A stretch of 64,000 nt of DNA from Catenulispora sp. MAP5-51 (GTDB lineage Bacteria > Actinomycetota > Actinomycetes > Streptomycetales > Catenulisporaceae), in NCBI RefSeq assembly GCF_041261205.1, contig NZ_JBGCCH010000016.1, forward strand, positions 124,001 to 188,000, read 5' to 3'. A program made the translations under genes and the position numbers. Below, piece after piece: positions 1 through 9,616 of this stretch (positions within the stretch are counted from its first letter, which is position 1; the number at the start of each line of letters is the position of its first letter). Below the pieces are notes generated by a model that saw only the letters and a list, made by a program, of their open reading frames with translations, had not been told where the DNA came from and ran no database searches.

Positions 1-569
1 GACAGCGCCAGCGCGGGCAGCGCCAGGTGGTAGGCCATGTCGAAGAACCCTGATCCGGACCCGATGGACGGGAACCAGCCCAGGCGCACCGAGAACACCC
101 AGATCAGCACGATCGCCGCGACGAAGGACGGGGTCCCGACCGCGACCGAGGTGGCCACCAGCATGCCGGAGTCCGCCGGCCCGCCGGGCCGGCGCGCCGA
201 GAGCCAGCCGGAGCCGACGCCGAGGACGACCACCAGGACCGCGGCCATCCCGATCAGCATCAGCGTCCCGGGCAGCCGGGCCGTGATCAGGCCCAGGACC
301 GGCGCGCGGTACTGGATGGAGGTGCCGAAGTCGCCGTGCGCCATCTGCGTCAGCCAGCGCCAGTACTGCACCGGGAACGGATCGTCCAGGTGGTAGTGCG
401 CGCGGATCGCGGCCAGCGCGTCGGGGGTGGCCGAGCGCCCGCCGAGCAGGAACGTCTCGGGCCGGCCCGGCGCCAGGTACACCGCCGAGAAGATCAGGAA
501 CGAGGCGGCGAGCAGCGTCACGGCGAGCTCGGCGGCCCGCCGTGCCGCGAACCGCCAGACCTCGCTCAC
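1..569 (-). CDS. ABC transporter permease, DppB/OppB family (partial)
   Basis: Inner-membrane permease of the peptide/nickel ABC importer family, expected to work with the binding lipoprotein encoded just upstream. Only about the first 189 residues are present; the gene runs off the left edge. A transmembrane segment follows the start (AELAVTLLAASFLIFSAVYL), then the family-typical stretch YHLDDPFPVQYWRWL and a second hydrophobic segment (LMLIGMAAVLVVVLG). The GTG start at 569 overlaps the TGA stop of the binding-protein gene (GTGA), so translation is probably coupled. The second permease and the ATPases are not in the window. Substrate cannot be read from the permease; the neighbours suggest agmatine, guanidino compounds or arginine-containing peptides. 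Confidence 0.85.
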   Translation of the reverse strand, partial: MSEVWRFAARRAAELAVTLLAASFLIFSAVYLAPGRPETFLLGGRSATPDALAAIRAHYHLDDPFPVQYWRWLTQMAHGDFGTSIQYRAPVLGLITARLPGTLMLIGMAAVLVVVLGVGSGWLSARRPGGPADSGMLVATSVAVGTPSFVAAIVLIWVFSVRLGWFPSIGSGSGFFDMAYHLALPALAL

Positions 570-2215
570 CCGGCCGAGCCGACGTCCGCGGCCCACGGGT
601 AGTAGAGGTAGGCGATGGACGTCGGTGCGCCGGTGACGCGCTTGTCCAGGAACAGCGAGTTCGGCCACTCGGCGGCCGGGATCCAGGGCAGCTGGTCCAC
701 GGCGATCTTCTGGATCTGCGCGCTGATCGCCGCGCGCTTCACCGGGTCGTATTCGGCCTCGGCCTGGTCGACGAGCTTGTCGTAGGCCGGGTCGGACCAG
801 CCTGCGTAGTTCTCGAAGTCGCCGGTGCGGAAGATGTGGTAGATCGCCAGCGGATCGGTCGTGGACAGGTAGTACGTCTCGGGGAAGGCGTCCAGTCCCT
901 CCCGGGCCTTGGGGTCGGAGAACAAGGCGGTGAAGGCGTCCGGGGCGATCGTCTTGAGCTGCACCTTCAGCCCGATCTGGGTGCCGGCCGACTGGAAGGC
1001 GGTGGCCAGCAGCCAGACGTCCGGGCCGATCGGCGAGGTCGCGATGGTGACGGTCTTGCCGGTCGCGCCGGCCTGCTGGATCAGGGCCTTGGCCTGGGCC
1101 AGGTCCTGGGCGGTCGGCGGCAGGTCGGCGGCCGGCGGCACGGTGCCGGCGGGCCAGGCGTCCGCCGGGGCGACCGAGGAGGTGACGGTGCCGACGCCCT
1201 TCAGCCCGGTCTTGACGAAGCCGGACCGGTCCAGCGCCAGCAGCAGGGCTTTGCGGACGCGGACGTCGCCGAGCGTCCCGGACAGGTTGCAGACGTTGAG
1301 ATTGACGGTGGTCAGCGACTTGCCGAAGTACAGGTTCCCGACGCCGGAGGACTTCAGCCGGGCGTAGCTGTCGGGCGTGATCAGGTACCCGCCGTCGGCG
1401 GCGCCGGTGAGCAGCGCGTTGGTCAGCGCCGTCGGGTCGGTGATGAACCGGAAGACGACCTTGCCGGCCAGCGCCGGCTTGCCCCAGTAGCCGGGGAACT
1501 TGTCGAGCTCGATCGAGGTGCCCTTGACCCACGTCCCCAGGGTGTAGGGGCCGGTGCAGCCCAGCGTGCCGCCGGTCCCGTAGTTCTGTCCGGCCGCCCG
1601 CACCGCCGAGGCGTGCACGACCGTGCCGGCCGAGTTCGCCATCGCCTCGCCGAACTGCGAGTCCGGCTTCTTCAGCTTGACGGTGACCTGCGACGGTCCG
1701 GTCTTGGTGACGGAGTCGACGTTGTCGAACGTGGATATCCAGGTGGAGCCGGTGGCCGGATCCATCTGCCGCTTGAGCGAGAACACCACGTCGTCGGCGG
1801 TCATGGTGCCGCCGTCGTGGAACTTCACGCCGGATCGCAGGGTGTAGACGTACGTCGTCGGATCCGGCTGCTCGACGGAGGAGGCCAGGCCCGGGGACTC
1901 GGTCAGGTCCGGGTTCCAGCGCATCAACGACTCGCAGATGTTCGACAGGATCATGTTCTGCGGGTAGTCGAAGGCCTGGGCGTAGTCCAGGGTCGTGGGC
2001 TCGGCGTACAGCGCCCAGGTGAACGAGTCGATCGGGCCCTTGGGCGCCGGGGTGGACGCGGACAGGGTGTACGCGGCGGCGCCGGCCCGGCCCGCGCCGC
2101 TGGCCGAGCCGCCGCCCGCGCCGGCGGTGTGCCCGCCGGAGCAGGCCGCGGTGGCGGCGACGAGGATCAGGCCGGTACTCGCAGCGGCGGCGGACCGCCA
2201 GGGAACTCTTATCAA
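566..2215 (-). CDS. ABC transporter substrate-binding lipoprotein, family 5
   Basis: Extracytoplasmic solute receptor of the DppA/OppA family, 549 residues, usual for the family. The N-terminus has a basic stretch, a hydrophobic core and a lipobox (ATAAC, Cys near residue 25). The mature protein has family-5 features such as ALYAEPTTLDYAQAFDYP near the front and the conserved region around YTLRSGVKFHDGGTMTADDV. The start is TTG at 2215 behind an AGGTAGGG Shine-Dalgarno; no other in-frame start sits before the signal peptide. It follows aguB by 52 bp and overlaps the permease by 4 nt, so it belongs to the aguA-aguB-importer operon. The ligand is unknown; its operon mates point to agmatine or a related compound. 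Confidence 0.88.
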   Translation of the reverse strand: MIRVPWRSAAAASTGLILVAATAACSGGHTAGAGGGSASGAGRAGAAAYTLSASTPAPKGPIDSFTWALYAEPTTLDYAQAFDYPQNMILSNICESLMRWNPDLTESPGLASSVEQPDPTTYVYTLRSGVKFHDGGTMTADDVVFSLKRQMDPATGSTWISTFDNVDSVTKTGPSQVTVKLKKPDSQFGEAMANSAGTVVHASAVRAAGQNYGTGGTLGCTGPYTLGTWVKGTSIELDKFPGYWGKPALAGKVVFRFITDPTALTNALLTGAADGGYLITPDSYARLKSSGVGNLYFGKSLTTVNLNVCNLSGTLGDVRVRKALLLALDRSGFVKTGLKGVGTVTSSVAPADAWPAGTVPPAADLPPTAQDLAQAKALIQQAGATGKTVTIATSPIGPDVWLLATAFQSAGTQIGLKVQLKTIAPDAFTALFSDPKAREGLDAFPETYYLSTTDPLAIYHIFRTGDFENYAGWSDPAYDKLVDQAEAEYDPVKRAAISAQIQKIAVDQLPWIPAAEWPNSLFLDKRVTGAPTSIAYLYYPWAADVGSAG

Positions 2216-2267: not shown

Positions 2268-3224
2268 CTACTCGCGCGTCATCGGCGTGGTCAGCGGCCC
2301 GTAGATCTCGGGGCGCCGGGTGTAGACCAGGCCGAACTCCAGCCAGTCCCGCCGCTGGTCCAGGTCCAGATCGGCGACCAGGACCGCGGGCTTGTCGCGC
2401 GGGGCGCGCAGGATGACGCGGCCGTAGGGGTCGGAGATGAAGGAGGACCCGTAGAAGGTGATCCGCCCCTCCGGCCCGACCCGGTTCGGCACGATCTGGA
2501 ACAGCGCGTTGGCCAGACCGTTCGCGCTGATCGCGTGCTCCCACATCGGCCGGGTGTCGAACTCCGGCAGCTCCGGCTCCGAGCCGATCGCGGTCGGGTG
2601 CACCAGGACCTGGGCCCCGGCCAGCGCGTAGGCCCGGGCCAGCTCCGGGAACCACTCGTCCCAGCAGGTCGGGAACCCGAAGCTGACATTGTCGATCGGC
2701 ACCACCGGGAAGCCGCTGTCGCCGGGGCGGAAGCAGAGGTTCTCGTGGTAACCGGGGAACTCCGGGATGTGGTTCTTGCGGGTGCGGGCCAGCATCCGGC
2801 CCTCGGCGTCCACACAGATCGCCGTGTTGTAGCCGAGACCGCCGTCGGCCGCGCGCTCGTACAGCGAGGCGTGCACGACGATGTTCAGTTCCTTGGCCAG
2901 CTCGGCGGCCAGGCGTGCGGTGGGGCCGTCGGTCAGGTCCTCGGCGAAGCGCGGGGCGTCCACGGCCATCGCCGCGTCGGCGGCGAAGTAGGGGCTGCGT
3001 GTCAGCTCCGGCAGGCAGACCATCGTCGCGCCCTGCTCGGCGGCGATGCGGACGCCGGCGCGCAGGGCCTCGTCGTGGGCCTCGGCGTCCGGCTGCCAGC
3101 GCATCTGCACCAGGCCGATCCGCAGCATCGGGCGGACCGAGGGCTCCAGCCGGGCCGGGGAGCCCAGCGGGGAGCCGAAGGAGGTCAGGAGGGTGTAGTC
3201 GATATCTGTCACGGGGGCACTCAT
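2268..3224 (-). CDS. aguB: N-carbamoylputrescine amidase (nitrilase superfamily)
   Basis: Cytoplasmic carbon-nitrogen hydrolase that converts N-carbamoylputrescine to putrescine, CO2 and ammonia, the step after agmatine deiminase. 318 residues, slightly longer than typical AguB because of about 30 extra N-terminal residues. The Glu-Lys-Cys triad is visible: Glu in VCLPEL, Lys in RKNHIPEFPG, Cys in TCWDEWFPE. The stretch after the Lys (HIPEFPGYHENLCFRPGD) is AguB-like rather than general nitrilase. The ATG at 3224 overlaps the stop of aguA (ATGA), so the two enzymes are translationally coupled. Assignment rests on motif match and the direct aguA linkage; another carbamoyl-amine substrate is possible. 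Confidence 0.9.
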   Translation of the reverse strand: MSAPVTDIDYTLLTSFGSPLGSPARLEPSVRPMLRIGLVQMRWQPDAEAHDEALRAGVRIAAEQGATMVCLPELTRSPYFAADAAMAVDAPRFAEDLTDGPTARLAAELAKELNIVVHASLYERAADGGLGYNTAICVDAEGRMLARTRKNHIPEFPGYHENLCFRPGDSGFPVVPIDNVSFGFPTCWDEWFPELARAYALAGAQVLVHPTAIGSEPELPEFDTRPMWEHAISANGLANALFQIVPNRVGPEGRITFYGSSFISDPYGRVILRAPRDKPAVLVADLDLDQRRDWLEFGLVYTRRPEIYGPLTTPMTRE

Positions 3225-4228
3225 GCCGCTGCCGCCTTCGGTATCTGCTGGGTGATGCAGTGGATGCCGCCGCCGCCGTGCGCGATGGTCGGGGTCCGCA
3301 CGCCGACCACCTCGCGGTCCGGCATCGCCTCGGCCAGCACCGCCAGCGCCCCGGCGTCGGCCGGCACGCCGGCGACCGGGACCACGACCCCGCCGTTGGG
3401 GAGGTAGAAGTTGAGGTAGCCGACCTCGACCTCGCCGCCGTCCACCTCGACCCGGTTGGACTGCGGGACCGGGATGATCCGGAGCTTGCGGCCGCGGGCG
3501 TCCACGGCGGTCTGCAGGACCTCCAGGTTCGCGCGGCAGCGGTCGTAGTCCGGGTGCTCCGGGTCCTCCGGCAGCTGCGCGATCACCGTGGCCGGGGCGA
3601 TGAACGCGCAGCAGCCGTCCACGTGGCCGTCGGTCTCGTAGTCCTCGGCGCCGCCGTAGGGCAGCCAGATGACGGTGGTGACGCCCAGGCGCGCCTTGAG
3701 CTCCTCCTCGATCTGCTCCCGGGTCCAGTCCGGGTTGCGGTTCGGGTGCAGCAGGCACTGCTCGGTGGTGATCAGCGTGCCCTCGCCGTCGACCGTGATG
3801 GAGCCGCCCTCCAGGATCAGCGAGGACTCCACGCGCTCCACGCCCAGCCGCTCCAGGAGCAGGGCGCTGATGCGGTCGTCGGCGTCCCACGGCGTGTGCT
3901 TGCCGCCCCAGGCGTTGAAGCGGAAGTCCACGCCGGCGCGGCGGCCTTCGGTGTCGGTGACGAAGATCGGCCCGGAGTCGCGGAACCAGGAGTCGTCGAT
4001 GGGGAGCTCGACGACCTCGACGGTGTCGCCGCAGCGGGCCCGGGCCTCCTCGCCGGAGCCGGGCGGGGCCACCATCAGGACCGGCTCGAAGCGGGCGACG
4101 GCGCGCGCCACCTCGGCGTACTCGTCCTTGGCGGACTCCAGGACGGCGCCCCACAGGTCGGCTCTGGTCGGCCAGGCCATCAGGGTGCCCTCGTGCTCGG
4201 CCCATTCGGCCGGCATGCGCATGGTCAT
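3221..4228 (-). CDS. aguA: agmatine deiminase
   Basis: Hydrolyses agmatine to N-carbamoylputrescine and ammonia in the cytoplasm (PAD_porph / guanidino-group-modifying family). 335 residues. Visible motifs: AEHEGTLMAWPTR near the start, DDSWFRDSGPIF, NAWGGKH, ILEGGSITVDGEGTLI, the catalytic His in DGHVDG (about residue 202) and the nucleophile Cys in GGGGIHC (about residue 324). The ATG at 4228 is preferred because an AAGGAA Shine-Dalgarno lies upstream; ATG 4222 is an alternative. It is the first gene of the minus-strand operon aguA-aguB-binding protein-permease, divergent from a tetR gene. An 18-bp palindrome at 4291-4308 lies upstream and overlaps a TTGACT -35-like hexamer reading towards this gene. 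Confidence 0.93.
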   Translation of the reverse strand: MTMRMPAEWAEHEGTLMAWPTRADLWGAVLESAKDEYAEVARAVARFEPVLMVAPPGSGEEARARCGDTVEVVELPIDDSWFRDSGPIFVTDTEGRRAGVDFRFNAWGGKHTPWDADDRISALLLERLGVERVESSLILEGGSITVDGEGTLITTEQCLLHPNRNPDWTREQIEEELKARLGVTTVIWLPYGGAEDYETDGHVDGCCAFIAPATVIAQLPEDPEHPDYDRCRANLEVLQTAVDARGRKLRIIPVPQSNRVEVDGGEVEVGYLNFYLPNGGVVVPVAGVPADAGALAVLAEAMPDREVVGVRTPTIAHGGGGIHCITQQIPKAAAA

Positions 4229-4290
4229 GGTTCTTCGGTTCCTTGTGAACGGGGCCGCTGTCCGGCGGCGCGGTGTGCATAGAATGCTCC

Positions 4291-4308
4291 TGACTGAAAC
4301 TTCAGTCA
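4291..4308. promoter_or_regulatory. Operator-like palindrome between aguA and tetR
   Basis: Perfect inverted repeat TGACTGAA-AC-TTCAGTCA, the size and symmetry of a TetR-family operator. It sits in the divergent promoter region, and its right edge forms TTGACT on the minus strand, a -35-like hexamer pointing at aguA. A near-identical copy lies at 6276-6293 and is flanked by the same bases (TCC before, ATACC after). Sequence is direct; binding by the adjacent TetR is inferred. Confidence 0.75.
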
Positions 4309-4363
4309 ATACCTCGGTCCAGACCGTGGGGACGACAGCGACTCGCATGTAAGGTGTGATGGC

Positions 4364-4954
4364 GTGGCCAGCAAAAGGGACCTGATCCTCCAGGCGGCGG
4401 TCGGGATGATCGCGCAGAGCGGCGTCAGAGGGCTGCGGGTCGAGGAGATCGCGGCGAAGGCCGGAGCCTCGACGGGGCTGATCTACTACCACTTCAAGGA
4501 CCGTGCCGGCCTGCTGCGCGCGACCCTGGACTACATCAGCGACCGCGCCGACCGGTACACCGCCCAGGCACTCGCGGCGGCCGGCTCCAACGGCCGCGAC
4601 CCGCGCTCGGAGCTGGAGCAGACCCTGCTCCTGGAGCTCCAGGACGACGACGAGATCCGCGAGAACAGCACCGCCTGGGGCGAACTGCGCGCCTCGGCCA
4701 TCTTCGACACCGACCTGCGCGACCAGCTGCAGAGCGCGACGGCGGCCTGGGTGGCCGAGATGGCCGAACGCGTGGCGCTGGCCCAGGAGGCCGGCCAGGC
4801 CCGCGAGGGCGTGGAGCCCGAGGACGTGGCCGAACGGCTGACGGCGCTGGTGGAGGGCCTGTCGGAGCGCTGGCTGTCCGGATCCCTGGGGCTGGAGCGA
4901 GCGCGGGATCTGCTGCGCGGGGCGATCGTGGCGGAGCTCGGGCCGGCGGCTTAG
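4364..4954 (+). CDS. TetR/AcrR family transcriptional regulator
   Basis: DNA-binding repressor of 196 residues. The N-terminal helix-turn-helix is clear: RDLILQAAVGMIAQSGVRGL, then EEIAAKAGASTGLIYYHFKD. The C-terminal ligand domain is not recognisable by motif. The GTG start at 4364 follows AAGG at 4351-4354. It is divergent from aguA across the palindrome at 4291-4308, and a second copy of that palindrome sits in front of the exported deiminases, so it probably controls both units. The effector might be agmatine, putrescine or a carbamoylated intermediate (inference). It converges on the Tat-exported deiminase gene, separated by a hairpin at 5001-5040. Confidence 0.9.
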   Translation: MASKRDLILQAAVGMIAQSGVRGLRVEEIAAKAGASTGLIYYHFKDRAGLLRATLDYISDRADRYTAQALAAAGSNGRDPRSELEQTLLLELQDDDEIRENSTAWGELRASAIFDTDLRDQLQSATAAWVAEMAERVALAQEAGQAREGVEPEDVAERLTALVEGLSERWLSGSLGLERARDLLRGAIVAELGPAA

Positions 4955-5000
4955 CAGCGCCGGCTGTCGGCGGCCGGGCGGGACAACGGCCGCCGGTCAG

Positions 5001-5040
5001 GCTCGGGCCTGCCTCTGCTGCTACCTGCGCAGGCCCGAGC
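5001..5040. terminator. Bidirectional hairpin between convergent genes
   Basis: A perfect 12-bp inverted repeat, GCTCGGGCCTGC at 5001-5012 and GCAGGCCCGAGC at 5029-5040, with a 16-nt loop. On the plus strand it is followed by ATGTTTTC. It lies between the ends of tetR (+) and the exported deiminase (-), as expected for a shared terminator. Confidence 0.75.
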
Positions 5041-5071
5041 ATGTTTTCAGCGTTCGATCAGTCGGCCCGGC

Positions 5072-6223
5072 TCACGCCGCGGGCTGCTGCTGCGTCACGC
5101 AGTGGATGCCGCCGCCCCCGTTGCCGAGGTTGTCGATGTTCAGCTGCTCGACGGTCCGGCCCGGGAACAGGGCACTGAGGGTGTCGTAGGCCAGGCCGTC
5201 GGCGTTGCCGTCGCCGAACTGCGCGGAGATCACCGCGCCGTTGCAGACGTAGTAGTTCGCGTAGGAGCCCACGAAGTCCTGGTTCGTCGAGCGGATGACG
5301 TTGTAGTTCGGGCCCTGGATGCGGGTCACGCCGATGGCGGCGCCCTGCGCGTCCTTGGCTGTGGACAGGACCTGGTACTGCTGCTTCTCGTCCGTGGCCC
5401 AGACGTCGGACTCGTTCGGGTCCGGGAGTTGCACCGCGCCGGCGCCGGCGCCGAGGAAGCGGCTGGTGGCGTCCACGTGGTCGTCGGTGATGTCCTGGTT
5501 CTTGATGCCGGTGAACCAGATGACCTCGCCGGCGCCGTAGGCCGCGCACATCGCCGCCTCGATCTGGGCCTGGGTCAGGTTCGGGTTGCGGTTGGAGTTG
5601 ATGATGCTGGAGCGGGTGGCCATCAGGGTGCCGGCGCCGTCGGTCTCGATCGCGCCGCCCTCGGAGACCAGGCCGGCCGCGGTGAACGGCAGCCCGAGGT
5701 AGGCCGCGACGCGCTTGGCGACCAGGGCGTCGTTGGTGTGGACCTGGCGGTTGCCCCAGCCGTTGAAGTTCAGGCCGACCGTGTCCTGGCCGCCGGCGCC
5801 GTTGCTCCGGAAGATCGGGCCGGTGTCGCGCATCCAGCAGTCGTTGATCGGGATCGAGCCGATGACCGTGACGCCGGAGCCGCACATCGAGCGTGCCTTG
5901 GAGACGCTGGCGGAGTTGGCGAGCAGGTAGACCGGTTCGTAGCCGGCGATGGTGCGGGCGATGAGGGCGATGTTCTGCTGGACGCCGGAGAGCTGGCGGC
6001 CCCAGATCGAGCTGGAGTCCGGCCAGGCCATCCAGGTGCGGGTGTGGGGGACGGAGTCGGCCGGGACGACGAAGGCGCCCGAGGCGGCCCGCCGGACGCG
6101 GGTCGCCGGTGCGGCCGGGCTCGCGGCGGCGGATTCGGCGACGCCGGCGCCGACCAGCGTCGCGGCACCGGCGGCGGCCGCGCCGAGCAGCACTGCACGT
6201 CGGGTGGGGGTGGAAGCGGACAT
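5072..6223 (-). CDS. Tat-exported agmatine deiminase family protein
   Basis: 383-residue member of the agmatine deiminase / PAD_porph family with an N-terminal twin-arginine signal (TPTRRAVLLGAAAAGAATL, then an Ala-rich h-region), so the enzyme should be folded inside and exported. Active-site motifs are intact: MAWPDSSSIWG, NDCWMRDTGPIF, FNGWGN, SEGGAIETDGAGTL, DDHVD and the nucleophile in GGGGIHC (about residue 375). The start is ATG 6223 with AAGGAG seven bases upstream. It is divergent from a second exported paralogue, with a TetR-type palindrome between them. It could act on agmatine outside the cell or, like related enzymes in other bacteria, on C-terminal peptidyl-arginine. No processing data are visible. 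Confidence 0.88.
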   Translation of the reverse strand: MSASTPTRRAVLLGAAAAGAATLVGAGVAESAAASPAAPATRVRRAASGAFVVPADSVPHTRTWMAWPDSSSIWGRQLSGVQQNIALIARTIAGYEPVYLLANSASVSKARSMCGSGVTVIGSIPINDCWMRDTGPIFRSNGAGGQDTVGLNFNGWGNRQVHTNDALVAKRVAAYLGLPFTAAGLVSEGGAIETDGAGTLMATRSSIINSNRNPNLTQAQIEAAMCAAYGAGEVIWFTGIKNQDITDDHVDATSRFLGAGAGAVQLPDPNESDVWATDEKQQYQVLSTAKDAQGAAIGVTRIQGPNYNVIRSTNQDFVGSYANYYVCNGAVISAQFGDGNADGLAYDTLSALFPGRTVEQLNIDNLGNGGGGIHCVTQQQPAA

Positions 6224-6275
6224 GCGCTCACTCCTTGGTGACGGAGGGGTGGTGCGATCGCTGGTATCGTGTTCC

Positions 6276-6293
6276 TGACTGAAGTTTTAGTCA
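6276..6293. promoter_or_regulatory. Second operator-like palindrome between the exported deiminases
   Basis: TGACTGAA-GT-TTTAGTCA matches the palindrome at 4291-4308 except for one arm base and the spacer, and shares the flanking TCC and ATACC. On the minus strand it again creates TTGACT, oriented toward the 5072-6223 gene. It is enclosed by a longer inverted repeat, CTGGTAT at 6261-6267 and ATACCAG at 6294-6300. Predicted to be bound by the TetR protein encoded at 4364-4954. Confidence 0.72.
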
Positions 6294-6326
6294 ATACCAG
6301 CGAGCCACCCATCCAGGAGCCACCCG

Positions 6327-7487
6327 ATGCACCAGCGCACCCTCTCCCGCCGCACCGCTTTGGGCTCAGCGCTCGGGATGGGAGCCGTCGCGCTGGGCGC
6401 GGTGGCCTGCGGGGGCGGCAGCGGGAGCGGCAGCAGTCCGACCGGCGCCCCGAGCTCGAACGCCCCGGCGTCCTCGGCGCCGACCCGGGTGTTCGGAGCC
6501 GAATGGGACCCGCACGTCCGCACCTTCATGGCCTGGCCGGCGTCCGATGCCATCTGGGGCGACCAGCTGCCGGGCGTTCAGGCCGACATCGCCAACCTCG
6601 CCCGCACCATCTCCGGCTTCGAACACGTGGTGCTGCTCGCGCGGTCCGAGCAGCAGGACGCGGCGCAGAACGCGGTGGGGTCGGGCGTCGAGGTGATCCC
6701 GATCCCGGTCGACGACCTGTGGATCCGCGACACCGCGCCGGTGTTCGTCCAGGACGCCGGGAAGACCGCGGGCGTGGAGTTCCACTTCAACGGCTGGGGC
6801 AACAAGCAGCAGCACGCCCTCGACGCCGGCGTCGCCGCGGCGATCATCAAGCAGTACCAGCTCCCCGGTATCGACTCCGGGATGGTCGCCGAGGGCGGCG
6901 CGCTGGAGACCGACGGCAAGGGCACGCTGATGGCCACCGAGAGCTCGCTCGTCAACGACAACCGGAACCCGGGCAAGACGCGTGATCAGATCGAGAGCCG
7001 GTTGAAAACGGCGCTGGGGGTCACGAACGTCATCTGGTTCACGGGGGTGAAGGGCCAGGACATCACCGACGCGCACGTGGACTGCCTCGCGCGGTTCGCG
7101 GCGTCCGGGGCCGTGCTGCTCGACAAGGCGTTCCCGGACCTGCCGCCGGACGTCTGGTCGCGCGCCTCGGACCAGGCCCGGACCGTGCTGGCCGGCGCGA
7201 CCGACGCGGCGGGGCGCAAGCTCACGGTCGTCGACCTGCCGCAGCCGGACCCGGACAAGATCACCGGGAAGGGTGACGCCTTCGTGTCCTCCTACGCGAA
7301 CTTCTTCGTCGCCAACGGCGCGGTGATCATGCCGAAGTTCGGCGACGCCGACGCCGACGACAAGGCCGCGGGCATCCTCGCCGAGCACTTCCCGGGCCGC
7401 AAGGTGGTGCCGATGGCGATCGACGCGATCGCGGCCGGCGGGGGCGGCATCCACTGCTCGACGCACGACATGCCGGGCGCGGCGTGA
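6327..7487 (+). CDS. Tat-type lipoprotein, agmatine deiminase family
   Basis: 386-residue paralogue of the two deiminases to its left. The N-terminus combines a twin-arginine motif (SRRTALGSALGMG) with a lipobox (GAVAC, Cys about residue 28), so the mature enzyme is probably a surface lipoprotein. Catalytic elements are retained: MAWPASDAIWG, DDLWIRDTAPVF, FNGWGNKQQ, AEGGALETDGKGTLM, DAHVD and GGGGIHC (Cys about residue 377). ATG 6327 has AGGAG seven bases upstream. It is divergent from the Tat-exported paralogue and shares the palindrome at 6276-6293. A serine/glycine-rich linker follows the lipobox. Substrate is inferred (agmatine or peptidyl-arginine). Confidence 0.87.
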   Translation: MHQRTLSRRTALGSALGMGAVALGAVACGGGSGSGSSPTGAPSSNAPASSAPTRVFGAEWDPHVRTFMAWPASDAIWGDQLPGVQADIANLARTISGFEHVVLLARSEQQDAAQNAVGSGVEVIPIPVDDLWIRDTAPVFVQDAGKTAGVEFHFNGWGNKQQHALDAGVAAAIIKQYQLPGIDSGMVAEGGALETDGKGTLMATESSLVNDNRNPGKTRDQIESRLKTALGVTNVIWFTGVKGQDITDAHVDCLARFAASGAVLLDKAFPDLPPDVWSRASDQARTVLAGATDAAGRKLTVVDLPQPDPDKITGKGDAFVSSYANFFVANGAVIMPKFGDADADDKAAGILAEHFPGRKVVPMAIDAIAAGGGGIHCSTHDMPGAA

Positions 7488-7581: not shown

Positions 7582-8919
7582 TCACTTGGCCGGCGGCGGC
7601 GTGTCGGACCCCTGCGAAGCCTCCGCGACCTCAGCCCGCGGCGCCCGCGGCGACCACGTCAGATCACGCCCGGCCCCGATGCCGATGACCGCTTGGACCC
7701 CGGCCAGCCCGGTCAGCAGCGTCAGCGGCACGACCCATCCGCCGGTGGTGCCGTGCAGCGCGCCGAGCAGCAGCGGACCGATCGCGGCGACCAGGTAGCC
7801 GACGGACTGGGCCATCGCGGCCAGCGCCGCGGCCTGCGGCCCCTCGGCGGCGCGCTGGCCCTGGAAGGTCAGGGCCAGCACCAGCGTCGCGCCGCTGCCC
7901 AGGCCCAACAGGACGCAGCTCACCACGGCCAGGCCCGGGGCCGCCGCGAGCAGCGCGAAACCGGCCGCGCTCAGGACCGAGGCGGTCGCGGCCAGCAGGC
8001 GCTGATCGACGCGGCGCCGGGTGAGCAGCGGCAGGGTGCTGCTGGCGACCAGCCCCACGGCCTGGAACAGGAACAGCTCCCACCCGGCGGCGGCCGCCGG
8101 AGTGCCGTGGTCGTGGACGATGCTGGGGAACCAGGCGATGGTGGCGTAGAAGCCGAAGGACTGCAGGCCCATGAACAGGCTGACCTGCCAGGCCAGCGCC
8201 GAGTGCCAGGGTCCGGCCGCTTTCGCCTTCCCCTTTGCCTTCCCCTTTGCCTTCTCCTTCGGAGCCGCCTTCGCGTCCGCCTTCGCCTGCGTCGTCGGCA
8301 TCGCCGCCGGCCGAGCCTCCCGGCGCAGATACGGCAGCCACGCGGGAAGGGCCAGCACCGCGAGCACCGCCCAGCAGCCCAGCGCGCTGCGCCAGCCGCC
8401 GGGCAGGACGTCGGCCAGCGGCACCGACACCCCGGAGGAGATCGCCGCGACCAGCCCCATCGCGGTCACGTAGACGCCGGTGACCTGCCCGATCCGCGAC
8501 CCGGGCACGTTGGCCCGCACCACCACCGGCAGCAGGACGTTGCCCGCGGCGATCGCGGCGGCGATGACGACGGTGCCGGTGAACAGCAACGCCGTCCCCG
8601 GCAGCGAGCGCACCACCAGACCGGCGGCCAGCAGCGGCAGCGACAGGGCCAGGACCCGCGGCGCCCCGTACCGGCGCGCGGCCCGGCCGGCCAGCGGGGA
8701 GGTGCCCGCGAAGGTCAGCAGCGGCAGCGTGACCAGCAGCCCGCCCCAGGTCTCGGACAGCCCGGTGGAGTGCTCGATGCTCGGCAGCAGCGGCCCGACG
8801 CCGGTCAGCCCCGCGCGCAGGTTCGCCGCGACGAGGATGATCGCGATCAGCAGCGAGGTGGTCAGCGTGGCCGGTCCGGGCGCCGTCCGGCCGCGGGCAG
8901 CCCTCTCCTCCACGCTCAT
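7582..8919 (-). CDS. MFS transporter, CynX/NimT-like
   Basis: About 445-residue major-facilitator exporter with 12 expected transmembrane segments; the family includes cyanate and 2-nitroimidazole transporters. The first segment is LTTSLLIAIILVAANLRAGL, and the early loop has the family-typical GVGPLLPSIEHSTGLS. The central cytoplasmic loop, where the two six-helix halves join, holds a Lys/Ala-rich insert built on KAKGKAKGKAKAA. ATG 8919 (MSVEER) is chosen because the hydrophobic core follows soon after; upstream ATG codons such as 8931 add residues with no Shine-Dalgarno support. It is divergent from the unknown gene at 8972. Substrate is unknown. Confidence 0.82.
   Translation of the reverse strand: MSVEERAARGRTAPGPATLTTSLLIAIILVAANLRAGLTGVGPLLPSIEHSTGLSETWGGLLVTLPLLTFAGTSPLAGRAARRYGAPRVLALSLPLLAAGLVVRSLPGTALLFTGTVVIAAAIAAGNVLLPVVVRANVPGSRIGQVTGVYVTAMGLVAAISSGVSVPLADVLPGGWRSALGCWAVLAVLALPAWLPYLRREARPAAMPTTQAKADAKAAPKEKAKGKAKGKAKAAGPWHSALAWQVSLFMGLQSFGFYATIAWFPSIVHDHGTPAAAAGWELFLFQAVGLVASSTLPLLTRRRVDQRLLAATASVLSAAGFALLAAAPGLAVVSCVLLGLGSGATLVLALTFQGQRAAEGPQAAALAAMAQSVGYLVAAIGPLLLGALHGTTGGWVVPLTLLTGLAGVQAVIGIGAGRDLTWSPRAPRAEVAEASQGSDTPPPAK
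8222..8257. repeat. 12-bp repeat in the MFS central loop
   Basis: Three near copies of TTTGCCTTCCCC on the plus strand, encoding Lys-Gly-Lys-Ala units in the MFS protein on the minus strand. It lies in frame, so unit gain or loss would lengthen the loop without a frameshift. Confidence 0.7.
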
Positions 8920-8971
8920 GCACGAGATCATATGTGCCGACTGTCGGCGCGAACCCTTAGCGTGGTCGGCC

Positions 8972-9616
8972 ATGGGACTGGGAATTTCGGTGGGGCTGCT
9001 CTGCGACCAGGCACGCAACGACCCCGAGGGCTACGCCCACCACCGCGAGGGCTTCGACCGCCTGACCCGCGCACTGGCGGCGGAGGGCATCACGTGGAGC
9101 GAGCCGGAGGTCATCCACAAGGCCGGCGACGAGCACGACTACTCGGCGGGCTTTCCGTACAGCTACTTGTCGCACATGCGGCGGACCTTCACCCTCGCCG
9201 AACTCGGCGAACCGGTGACACCCCGGGCCGCGATCAGCGACGAGGAGTATGAGCGCGACCAGGCGAAGGTCCAGGACGAGATGGTCATGTTCTCCTCCCA
9301 TCTGCTCTGCCATACCGACGACGAGGGCTACTACATCCCGGTCGACTTCTCCGACCCGCTGTTCCTGCCCGAAGAGGCACAGGTCGCGGGCGCCGGCATG
9401 GTCGGCTCCAGCCACCGGCTGCGGGCGGAGTTGGCCGGCTTCGCCACCTCGCTCGGGATCCGACTCGACGAGCAGGGCATGGTGTCCGCCGACGAGGCCG
9501 CCGCCATAGAGGCGGGCACCGATGAGCCGTTCACGGCGGAACGGTACGCGTGGCTGCACCTGTATCAGGCATGCCTGGCGAGCATCGGGAGCGGGCACGC
9601 GATCGTGTTCTGCTGA
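8972..9616 (+). CDS. Conserved-type hypothetical protein, function unknown
   Basis: 214 residues starting MGLGISVGLLCDQ. No signal peptide or membrane segment. The protein is acidic, with mixed alpha/beta character, and contains the sequences HKAGDEHDYSAGFPYSYLSH and DDEGYYIPVDFSDPLF, which may be surface or binding loops. I do not recognise the family. It lies 14 bp before the S1-domain gene in the same direction and may share its transcript. The start at 8972 is the first ATG after the divergent MFS promoter region; the Shine-Dalgarno is weak. Confidence 0.7.
   Translation: MGLGISVGLLCDQARNDPEGYAHHREGFDRLTRALAAEGITWSEPEVIHKAGDEHDYSAGFPYSYLSHMRRTFTLAELGEPVTPRAAISDEEYERDQAKVQDEMVMFSSHLLCHTDDEGYYIPVDFSDPLFLPEEAQVAGAGMVGSSHRLRAELAGFATSLGIRLDEQGMVSADEAAAIEAGTDEPFTAERYAWLHLYQACLASIGSGHAIVFC

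Follow-up and report, generated by a model that had tools for sequence, protein, structure and literature searches.

A TetR-linked locus of Catenulispora unites a predicted cytosolic and two predicted exported relatives of agmatine deiminase with a shared putative operator

The window analysed here, a stretch of 64,000 nucleotides from Catenulispora sp. MAP5-51 (contig NZ_JBGCCH010000016.1, positions 124,001 to 188,000), carries near its left end a locus with three genes for deiminases of family PF04371, a TetR-family regulator, a candidate amidase and part of an ATP-binding cassette (ABC) importer (Table 1). An earlier note, made from the letters alone, had read this locus as three agmatine deiminases in three cell locations. 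Profile searches bear out three intact family members within one TetR-linked locus: all three window proteins exceed the PF04371 cut-off of 25, and exactly three matches at E 0.001 or better exist in the source genome (G000; 10.9 Mb, 99.97% complete), all of them in this locus and sharing 35–49% pairwise identity. Export signals, here and throughout assigned by rule and by eye, predict the three locations. One deiminase possesses an N-terminus (MSASTPTRRAVLLGAAAAGAATLVGAG) with a signal of the twin-arginine translocation (Tat) type and no lipobox, another (MHQRTLSRRTALGSALGMGAVALGAVAC) combines a Tat-type signal with a lipobox, and the AguA-like protein, whose ATG start was picked by its ribosome site, has no export signal by rule or eye. 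The start of the AguB-like gene overlaps the stop of the AguA-like gene (3224 vs 3221), and its product, a CN_hydrolase (PF00795), is a candidate for the carbamoylputrescine amidase that had been proposed. The importer beside the deiminases is likewise real and complete, though mostly outside the window, since the operon runs on beyond the left edge with a second permease and two ATPases (L091; Pfam BPD_transp_1 and ABC_tran; synteny).

Table 1. Features of the deiminase locus, in window coordinates.
Feature	Position	Strand	Evidence
ABC permease, Opp/Dpp type	3..560	-	cut by window edge; Pfam BPD_transp_1 and synteny
Family-5 solute-binding lipoprotein	566..2215	-	PF00496 232.5 bits; lipobox TAAC read by eye
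Carbon-nitrogen hydrolase (CN_hydrolase), AguB-like	2268..3224	-	PF00795 158.6 bits
AguA-like deiminase, no export signal	3221..4228	-	PF04371 395 bits; TIGR03380 348.2 bits
Palindrome TGACTGAAACTTCAGTCA, putative TetR operator, AguA/TetR gap	4291..4308	.	perfect arms
TetR-family regulator	4364..4954	+	PF00440 and TetR_C_6; orthologues track palindrome
Exported-type deiminase, Tat signal, predicted soluble	5072..6223	-	PF04371 310 bits; signal by rule and eye
Palindrome TGACTGAAGTTTTAGTCA, putative TetR operator between the two exported-deiminase genes	6276..6293	.	one arm mismatch
Exported-type deiminase, Tat signal and lipobox (predicted lipoprotein)	6327..7487	+	PF04371 354 bits; signal by rule and eye

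Both divergent promoter regions of the locus contain a palindrome with the consensus TGACTGAA-nn-TTCAGTCA. The copy in the AguA/TetR gap reads TGACTGAA-AC-TTCAGTCA with perfect arms and is located 62 bases before AguA and 55 before TetR; the copy between the exported-deiminase genes reads TGACTGAA-GT-TTTAGTCA, with one mismatch in an arm, and is located 52 bases before the Tat deiminase and 33 before the lipoprotein deiminase. When up to two mismatches were allowed, these remained the only sites in the whole 10.9-Mb genome. Six genomic places matched with up to three mismatches; four of them had exactly three, and the other two were the locus sites (0 and 1). A reversed control pattern yielded two places. 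Under a simple composition model, about 0.005 sites with exactly one mismatch are expected genome-wide, 0.16 with exactly two and 3.2 with three, and none of 100 shuffled versions of the window contained two or more sites. A chance match was considered and dismissed on the evidence of the genome scan, the shuffles and the co-occurrence with TetR in other genomes. As a separate observation, a palindrome-like site lies in Actinomadura litoris (L130, 8804–8821) about 480 bases after a gene of the ornithine/arginine decarboxylase family; TetR was not found there.

Co-occurrence of palindrome and regulator was assessed in 32 genomes, which had been chosen as carriers of relatives or as close kin and not at random. 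At a threshold of E 1e-20, TetR was scored as present in 17 of them. A site with at most one mismatch accompanied it in 17/17 genomes, as compared to 2/15 genomes lacking TetR (G037, G409; Fisher 3e-7, kinship uncorrected). Among 293 order-level genomes, TetR is present in 47. A held-out set comprised 40 TetR-anchored regions from 35 TetR-bearing genomes new to the analysis, for which predictions were set down before any of the regions was analysed. Deiminases with the exported-type motif (D-[IVL]-T-x-x-H-x-D) were detected in 36 of these regions, and the site was present in 32 at up to one mismatch and in 36 at up to two. Full AguA was present in 14; the script had marked 17 regions as AguA-type, and three (L199, L212, L214) were discounted as weak fragments (111–158 bits). 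The palindrome follows TetR across genera, and together with the held-out counts this indicates a recurrent regulon. Aside from this, TetR paralogues adjoin catalase genes in three regions (L126, 6826–9392; L127, 6558–9173; L182, 8844–13000), the paralogue in L182 being accompanied by AguA and AguB, and a catalase gene also lies near the deiminases of genome G374 (L073).

The gene order AguA-(AguB)-binding protein-permease-permease-ATPase-ATPase is kept in Catenulispora, Streptacidiphilus fuscans, S. jiangxiensis and genomes G156, G345 and G374. In G345 (L077) and L203, the last ATPase gene is directly followed by a Tat-lineage deiminase gene of the same orientation. The S. fuscans cluster (L132) packs five deiminase genes into 14 kb, encoding AguA, two Tat lipoproteins, one soluble Tat protein and one short protein without signal; here the rule called one lipoprotein Sec-type and missed the signal of the soluble protein, and both were read as Tat by eye. 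In G156, separate sites are located upstream of AguA, urease, one Tat deiminase, a TetR gene and the lipoprotein deiminase. Finally, a lipoprotein deiminase and AguA lie together with two permeases and two ATPases in G130, a genome in which neither TetR nor operator was found; the association of exported deiminase, importer and AguA thus has a basis other than TetR alone.

Taken together, the genes very probably constitute one regulon with a defined putative operator, and the shared operator and its recurrence in other genera strengthen the earlier reading of the locus. From the computed features, i.e. gene content, predicted locations, shared palindrome, TetR co-occurrence, synteny, catalytic residues and a distinct exported branch, we infer repression, an inducer, a direction of flow and a substrate as follows. 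The TetR repressor would sit on one palindrome in each of the two divergent promoters and thereby control its own gene, the operon of AguA, AguB and importer, and the two exported deiminases, until it is released by an inducer, which is probably the substrate or the product formed from it. Outside the cell, the soluble and the membrane-anchored deiminase would convert a guanidino compound to the ureido form and ammonia, and the family-5 ABC importer would take up the compound or the product. Further ammonia would be freed inside the cell by the AguA-like enzyme together with the AguB-like amidase, whose place would be taken in other genera by a urease of the same cluster. On balance we lean towards the view that the locus is a TetR-repressed scavenging regulon for guanidino compounds.

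Several observations weigh against this view. Agmatine could already be handled by an importer and a cytosolic AguA, and the outer enzymes may therefore have a different purpose. The script found no exported-type deiminase in four of the 40 held-out regions (L182, L200, L202, L212), of which L182 and L202 have AguA, L212 a weak fragment and L200 no deiminase at all. No site with up to one mismatch was detected in eight of the 40, and four of these have none with up to two. No deiminase was found with the catalase-linked TetR paralogues of L126 and L127, and the second Tat deiminase gene of G156 (L071) has no site upstream. Promoter scans around both window palindromes found no sigma-70-like promoter; actinobacterial promoters need not match the sigma-70 pattern. 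For six of the 43 exported-type proteins in the tree described below, no signal was found. Finally, the PF04371 family is absent from five of ten Catenulispora genomes (two of them less than 82% complete), which marks the locus as accessory.

The relationship of the exported proteins to AguA was addressed with 108 deiminases collected from the loci. Of these, 105 entered the tree; L020, L063 and L064, all with the exported-type motif, were left out, as the core anchor was not matched. A single branch of 41 rows (support 100, SH-aLRT, quick method) contains 40 of the 43 rows with the motif and mixes Actinomycetes with the class of a Paraglaciecola genome (Gammaproteobacteria). Its remaining member, L172, has a Tat signal and lacks the motif, and the other three motif rows, all from the Paraglaciecola class, group separately. 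Export signals are present in 37/43 motif rows versus 1/62 rows without the motif. Before correction by hand the counts were 33/43 and 3/62: four proteins (L059, L061, L132 14628, L170) were set to exported, since a signal read as Tat by eye was masked by a contig end or missed by the rule, and the AguA rows L058 and L149 were set to no signal, as the match lay upstream of the likely start. Judged by their sequences, the exported proteins are an old branch separate from AguA. A recent local triplication of the three window genes was ruled out, because AguA takes another place in the tree and the exported pair is split between two parts of the exported branch, one of 12 and one of 19 rows. In the Paraglaciecola class, G484 carries two adjacent exported deiminases (L167, 7792–8931 and 8938–10053), one Sec-type and one Tat-type by rule.

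Next to location, the active sites were compared. Passages of a study on the Medicago agmatine deiminase (PMC6447857) describe Asp94, His224, Asp226 and Cys366 as handling the guanidine and Asp220 as binding the far amine of agmatine; they print Asn94 and once Asn226, which were read as Asp from the sequences. All four catalytic residues are kept in the three window deiminases, in agreement with the intact motifs claimed earlier, as well as in 9/9 and 22/22 exported-type rows (two shortened duplicate rows dropped). Among AguA-type rows, Asp94 is present in 36/38 and the other three residues are present in 38/38. Four positions ahead of the catalytic His, each of the five different solved enzymes of the family with alignments read has an acidic residue, namely Asp in the Arabidopsis, Medicago, Helicobacter and putative Chlorobium enzymes and Glu in a putative Streptococcus enzyme (the Enterococcus, Campylobacter and Porphyromonas structures were left out of this comparison). 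Among the window proteins, this position 220 is occupied by Glu in AguA and by Ile in the two exported forms. Across the tree, the 38 signal-bearing rows have Ile (35), Val (1) and Leu (1) with one row unread, and the 67 rows without signal have Glu (20), Gly (20), Asp (17), Ile (6), His (2), Val (1) and Ala (1). A gapped alignment instead places a one-residue deletion here and keeps Asp218; the carboxylate is missing under either alignment. An acidic residue in every AguA-type protein was ruled out by the 20 Gly rows. Position 220 therefore separates the exported branch from the solved enzymes aligned, not from all relatives, and is by itself no proof of a new substrate, since many unproven AguA-type relatives carry Gly. 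Nevertheless, as the exported branch lacks the acidic residue that grips the far amine, free agmatine is not a safe substrate assignment, and the earlier proposal that the outer enzymes use it is weakened.

A structure model of the Tat deiminase (mean pLDDT 88; residues 1–42 under 50) comes closest to agmatine deiminases, with TM-scores (query length) of 0.80–0.81 to the plant and Enterococcus enzymes and 0.70–0.80 to other bacterial ones, as compared to 0.67–0.69 for PPAD. The Medicago, Arabidopsis and Enterococcus enzymes share fold and catalytic residues and are among the best structure matches; the plant enzymes carry, unlike the exported window proteins, acidic residue 220 for the substrate amine. 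These three agmatine deiminases are intracellular. The name "agmatine deiminase" used in the earlier note stands at the level of family PF04371. It fails at the NCBI equivalog cut-off of TIGR03380 (381.8 bits), which is missed by all three window proteins (348.2 for the AguA-like protein, 227 and 239.4); even the cytoplasmic protein scores below it, and so the name denotes homology and not proof.

The strongest alternative is ordinary agmatine use in redundant compartments. All three enzymes would deiminate free agmatine, the two outer ones yielding N-carbamoylputrescine for import, and the locus would be an actinobacterial counterpart of aguBA plus agu2ABCA' of Pseudomonas aeruginosa. According to excerpts of PMC4287709, the TetR protein AguR represses aguBA until agmatine binds; the second operon, agu2ABCA', appears there and in excerpts of PMC4211729, which report that it responds to environmental agmatine; neither set of excerpts mentions Tat. 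The common fold family with the agmatine deiminases as closest solved structures, the AguB partner in Catenulispora and G374 and the TetR regulator, as in AguR, all agree with this alternative. So does the existence of a second agmatine operon in P. aeruginosa, one deiminase of which is reportedly secreted. Williams et al. (2010) reportedly described that agu2ABCA' of strain PA14 holds two deiminases, is induced by agmatine and has its Agu2A' exported by Tat to the periplasm. On the other hand, 37 of the 38 signal-bearing rows carry an aliphatic residue (Ile, Val or Leu) at position 220, compared with an acidic one in 37 of the 67 signal-less rows, and AguB is missing from 17 of the 19 TetR-linked AguA clusters outside Catenulispora. 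We regard this explanation as possible yet rather doubtful, and slightly favour a substrate other than free agmatine for the exported enzymes.

Detoxification or competition, in which the exported enzymes would destroy guanidino toxins, antibiotics or arginine-rich peptides sensed by TetR, appears unlikely. A surface lipoprotein and a soluble form would suit protection, and 26 of the 40 held-out regions lack a full AguA in the fetched stretch, mostly showing TetR and an exported-type deiminase only (some at contig ends); however, the dedicated importer and the coupling to AguA, AguB or urease in many clusters point to nutrition. Least probable is a PPAD-like role, in which arginine of exported or environmental proteins would be citrullinated. 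The shared Pfam family, the export and the match of the lipoprotein form to PPAD at E 1.5e-8 would allow it; against it stand a fold nearer agmatine deiminases, PF04371 domains extending to residues 381/383 and 383/386 that leave no room for a C-terminal Ig-like domain, and glycines of an FNGWGN motif that, matched by eye to the partial text of PMC4487231, seem to take the positions of R152 and R154. The peptidylarginine deiminase (PPAD) of Porphyromonas gingivalis is a PF04371 relative with the same catalytic Cys and His and guanidine-binding Asp; as parts of that text describe, it is exported, and its R152 and R154 hold the substrate carboxylate. It differs from the window proteins by the extra Ig-like domain, by 18–19% identity in the structure match and by this arginine pair, which by eye seems to have no counterpart. 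Of the other outer substrate suggested earlier, peptidyl-arginine, the C-terminal form used by PPAD is weakened accordingly. The exported enzymes may still act on arginine inside peptides.

In these clusters, AguB and urease seem to alternate. Among 24 TetR-linked AguA clusters (10 seen first and 14 held out), AguB is found in seven and urease in 14, never both (Fisher 3.5e-4, kinship uncorrected); addition of the TetR-less AguA clusters of G130 and G037, which have neither gene, gives 1.2e-3, again with kinship uncorrected. Five of the seven AguB clusters are from Catenulispora, and stretch ends may cut genes off. That one of both is always present was ruled out by three of the 24 clusters (L203, L210, L213), which contain neither within the fetched stretch. 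In a search of 13 genomes, an AguB orthologue of at least 56% identity occurs only in Catenulispora and G374; seven of the other genomes have 36–39% relatives only and three have no match. To our knowledge, urease does not hydrolyse N-carbamoylputrescine. It is speculation that an AguA product yielding urea would fit urease in the place of AguB.

Further genes were noticed at the locus and in its relatives. The lipoprotein deiminase gene adjoins a CynX/NimT-type transporter gene of the major facilitator superfamily (MFS) at 7582–9018, and an MFS neighbour is also found there in three of four other Catenulispora genomes with the locus; membership in the regulon was ruled out, as no palindrome lies by the gene. 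In G345 (L077, 7721–10429), AguA and the family-5 binding protein share one unbroken frame, which reflects either loss of a stop or a natural fusion. The clusters of relatives also contain deiminase genes that are short or fragmentary, with the palindrome still near (L073, 11610–12248; L084, 7052–7378; L132, 3342–4214). In G156 and S. jiangxiensis, genes for serine/threonine protein kinases are found within the deiminase clusters or adjoin them (L071, 7233–8294; L072, 6465–8045; L133, 5492–7138).

The earlier note regarded the arrangement as undescribed. As far as Actinomycetes are concerned, neither an exported or lipoprotein agmatine deiminase nor this regulon was found described among the titles and abstract beginnings listed, which include few subscription journals. 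Secretion as such has a reported precedent, and the statement that agmatine deiminase is normally intracellular overlooks Agu2A' of PA14, which is reportedly secreted by Tat. Like agu2ABCA' with its reportedly Tat-exported Agu2A', the present locus joins a predicted Tat-exported deiminase to a cytosolic one. It appears to differ from that operon in belonging to a Gram-positive and in having predicted soluble Tat and Tat-lipoprotein forms from two separate branches, an Opp-type importer and a defined palindrome; no lipoprotein form is known from PA14 agu2ABCA'. The P. aeruginosa aguRBA system likewise brings together a TetR regulator, an agmatine deiminase and a carbamoylputrescine amidase, and the TetR gene and the palindromes in the deiminase promoter regions of the present locus agree with regulation of the AguR type; unlike in the excerpts of PMC4287709, which mention no exported deiminase or importer, a putative repressor site is common to two exported-deiminase genes here. 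Frankia cluster Ia FRAAL0164 is also an actinobacterial deiminase, proposed in part of PMC9956245 to serve nitrogen access or to block agmatine-derived plant phenolamides; in contrast to our locus it is treated there as a single gene, for which the table of that paper gives no secretion. What appears new here is the regulon with a shared palindrome.

A tentative extension of the scavenging regulon is that the exported branch could be a family of its own, acting on guanidino compounds capped at the far end and forming the extracellular arm of a new Actinomycetes TetR nitrogen regulon with its own importer and AguB and urease as interchangeable last steps. Candidate substrates of this kind are agmatine conjugates, e.g. 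the hydroxycinnamoyl-agmatines of plant litter, and arginine within a peptide chain. Should the exported branch prove to have a substrate of its own, an exported enzyme that recurs across genomes currently goes under the wrong name of agmatine deiminase. The palindrome and the regulon offer a direct handle on this question, as the inducer of TetR would reveal the natural substrate, and the regulon makes the AguB/urease alternation testable. If true, this would add an extracellular route to guanidino nitrogen recycling in soil.

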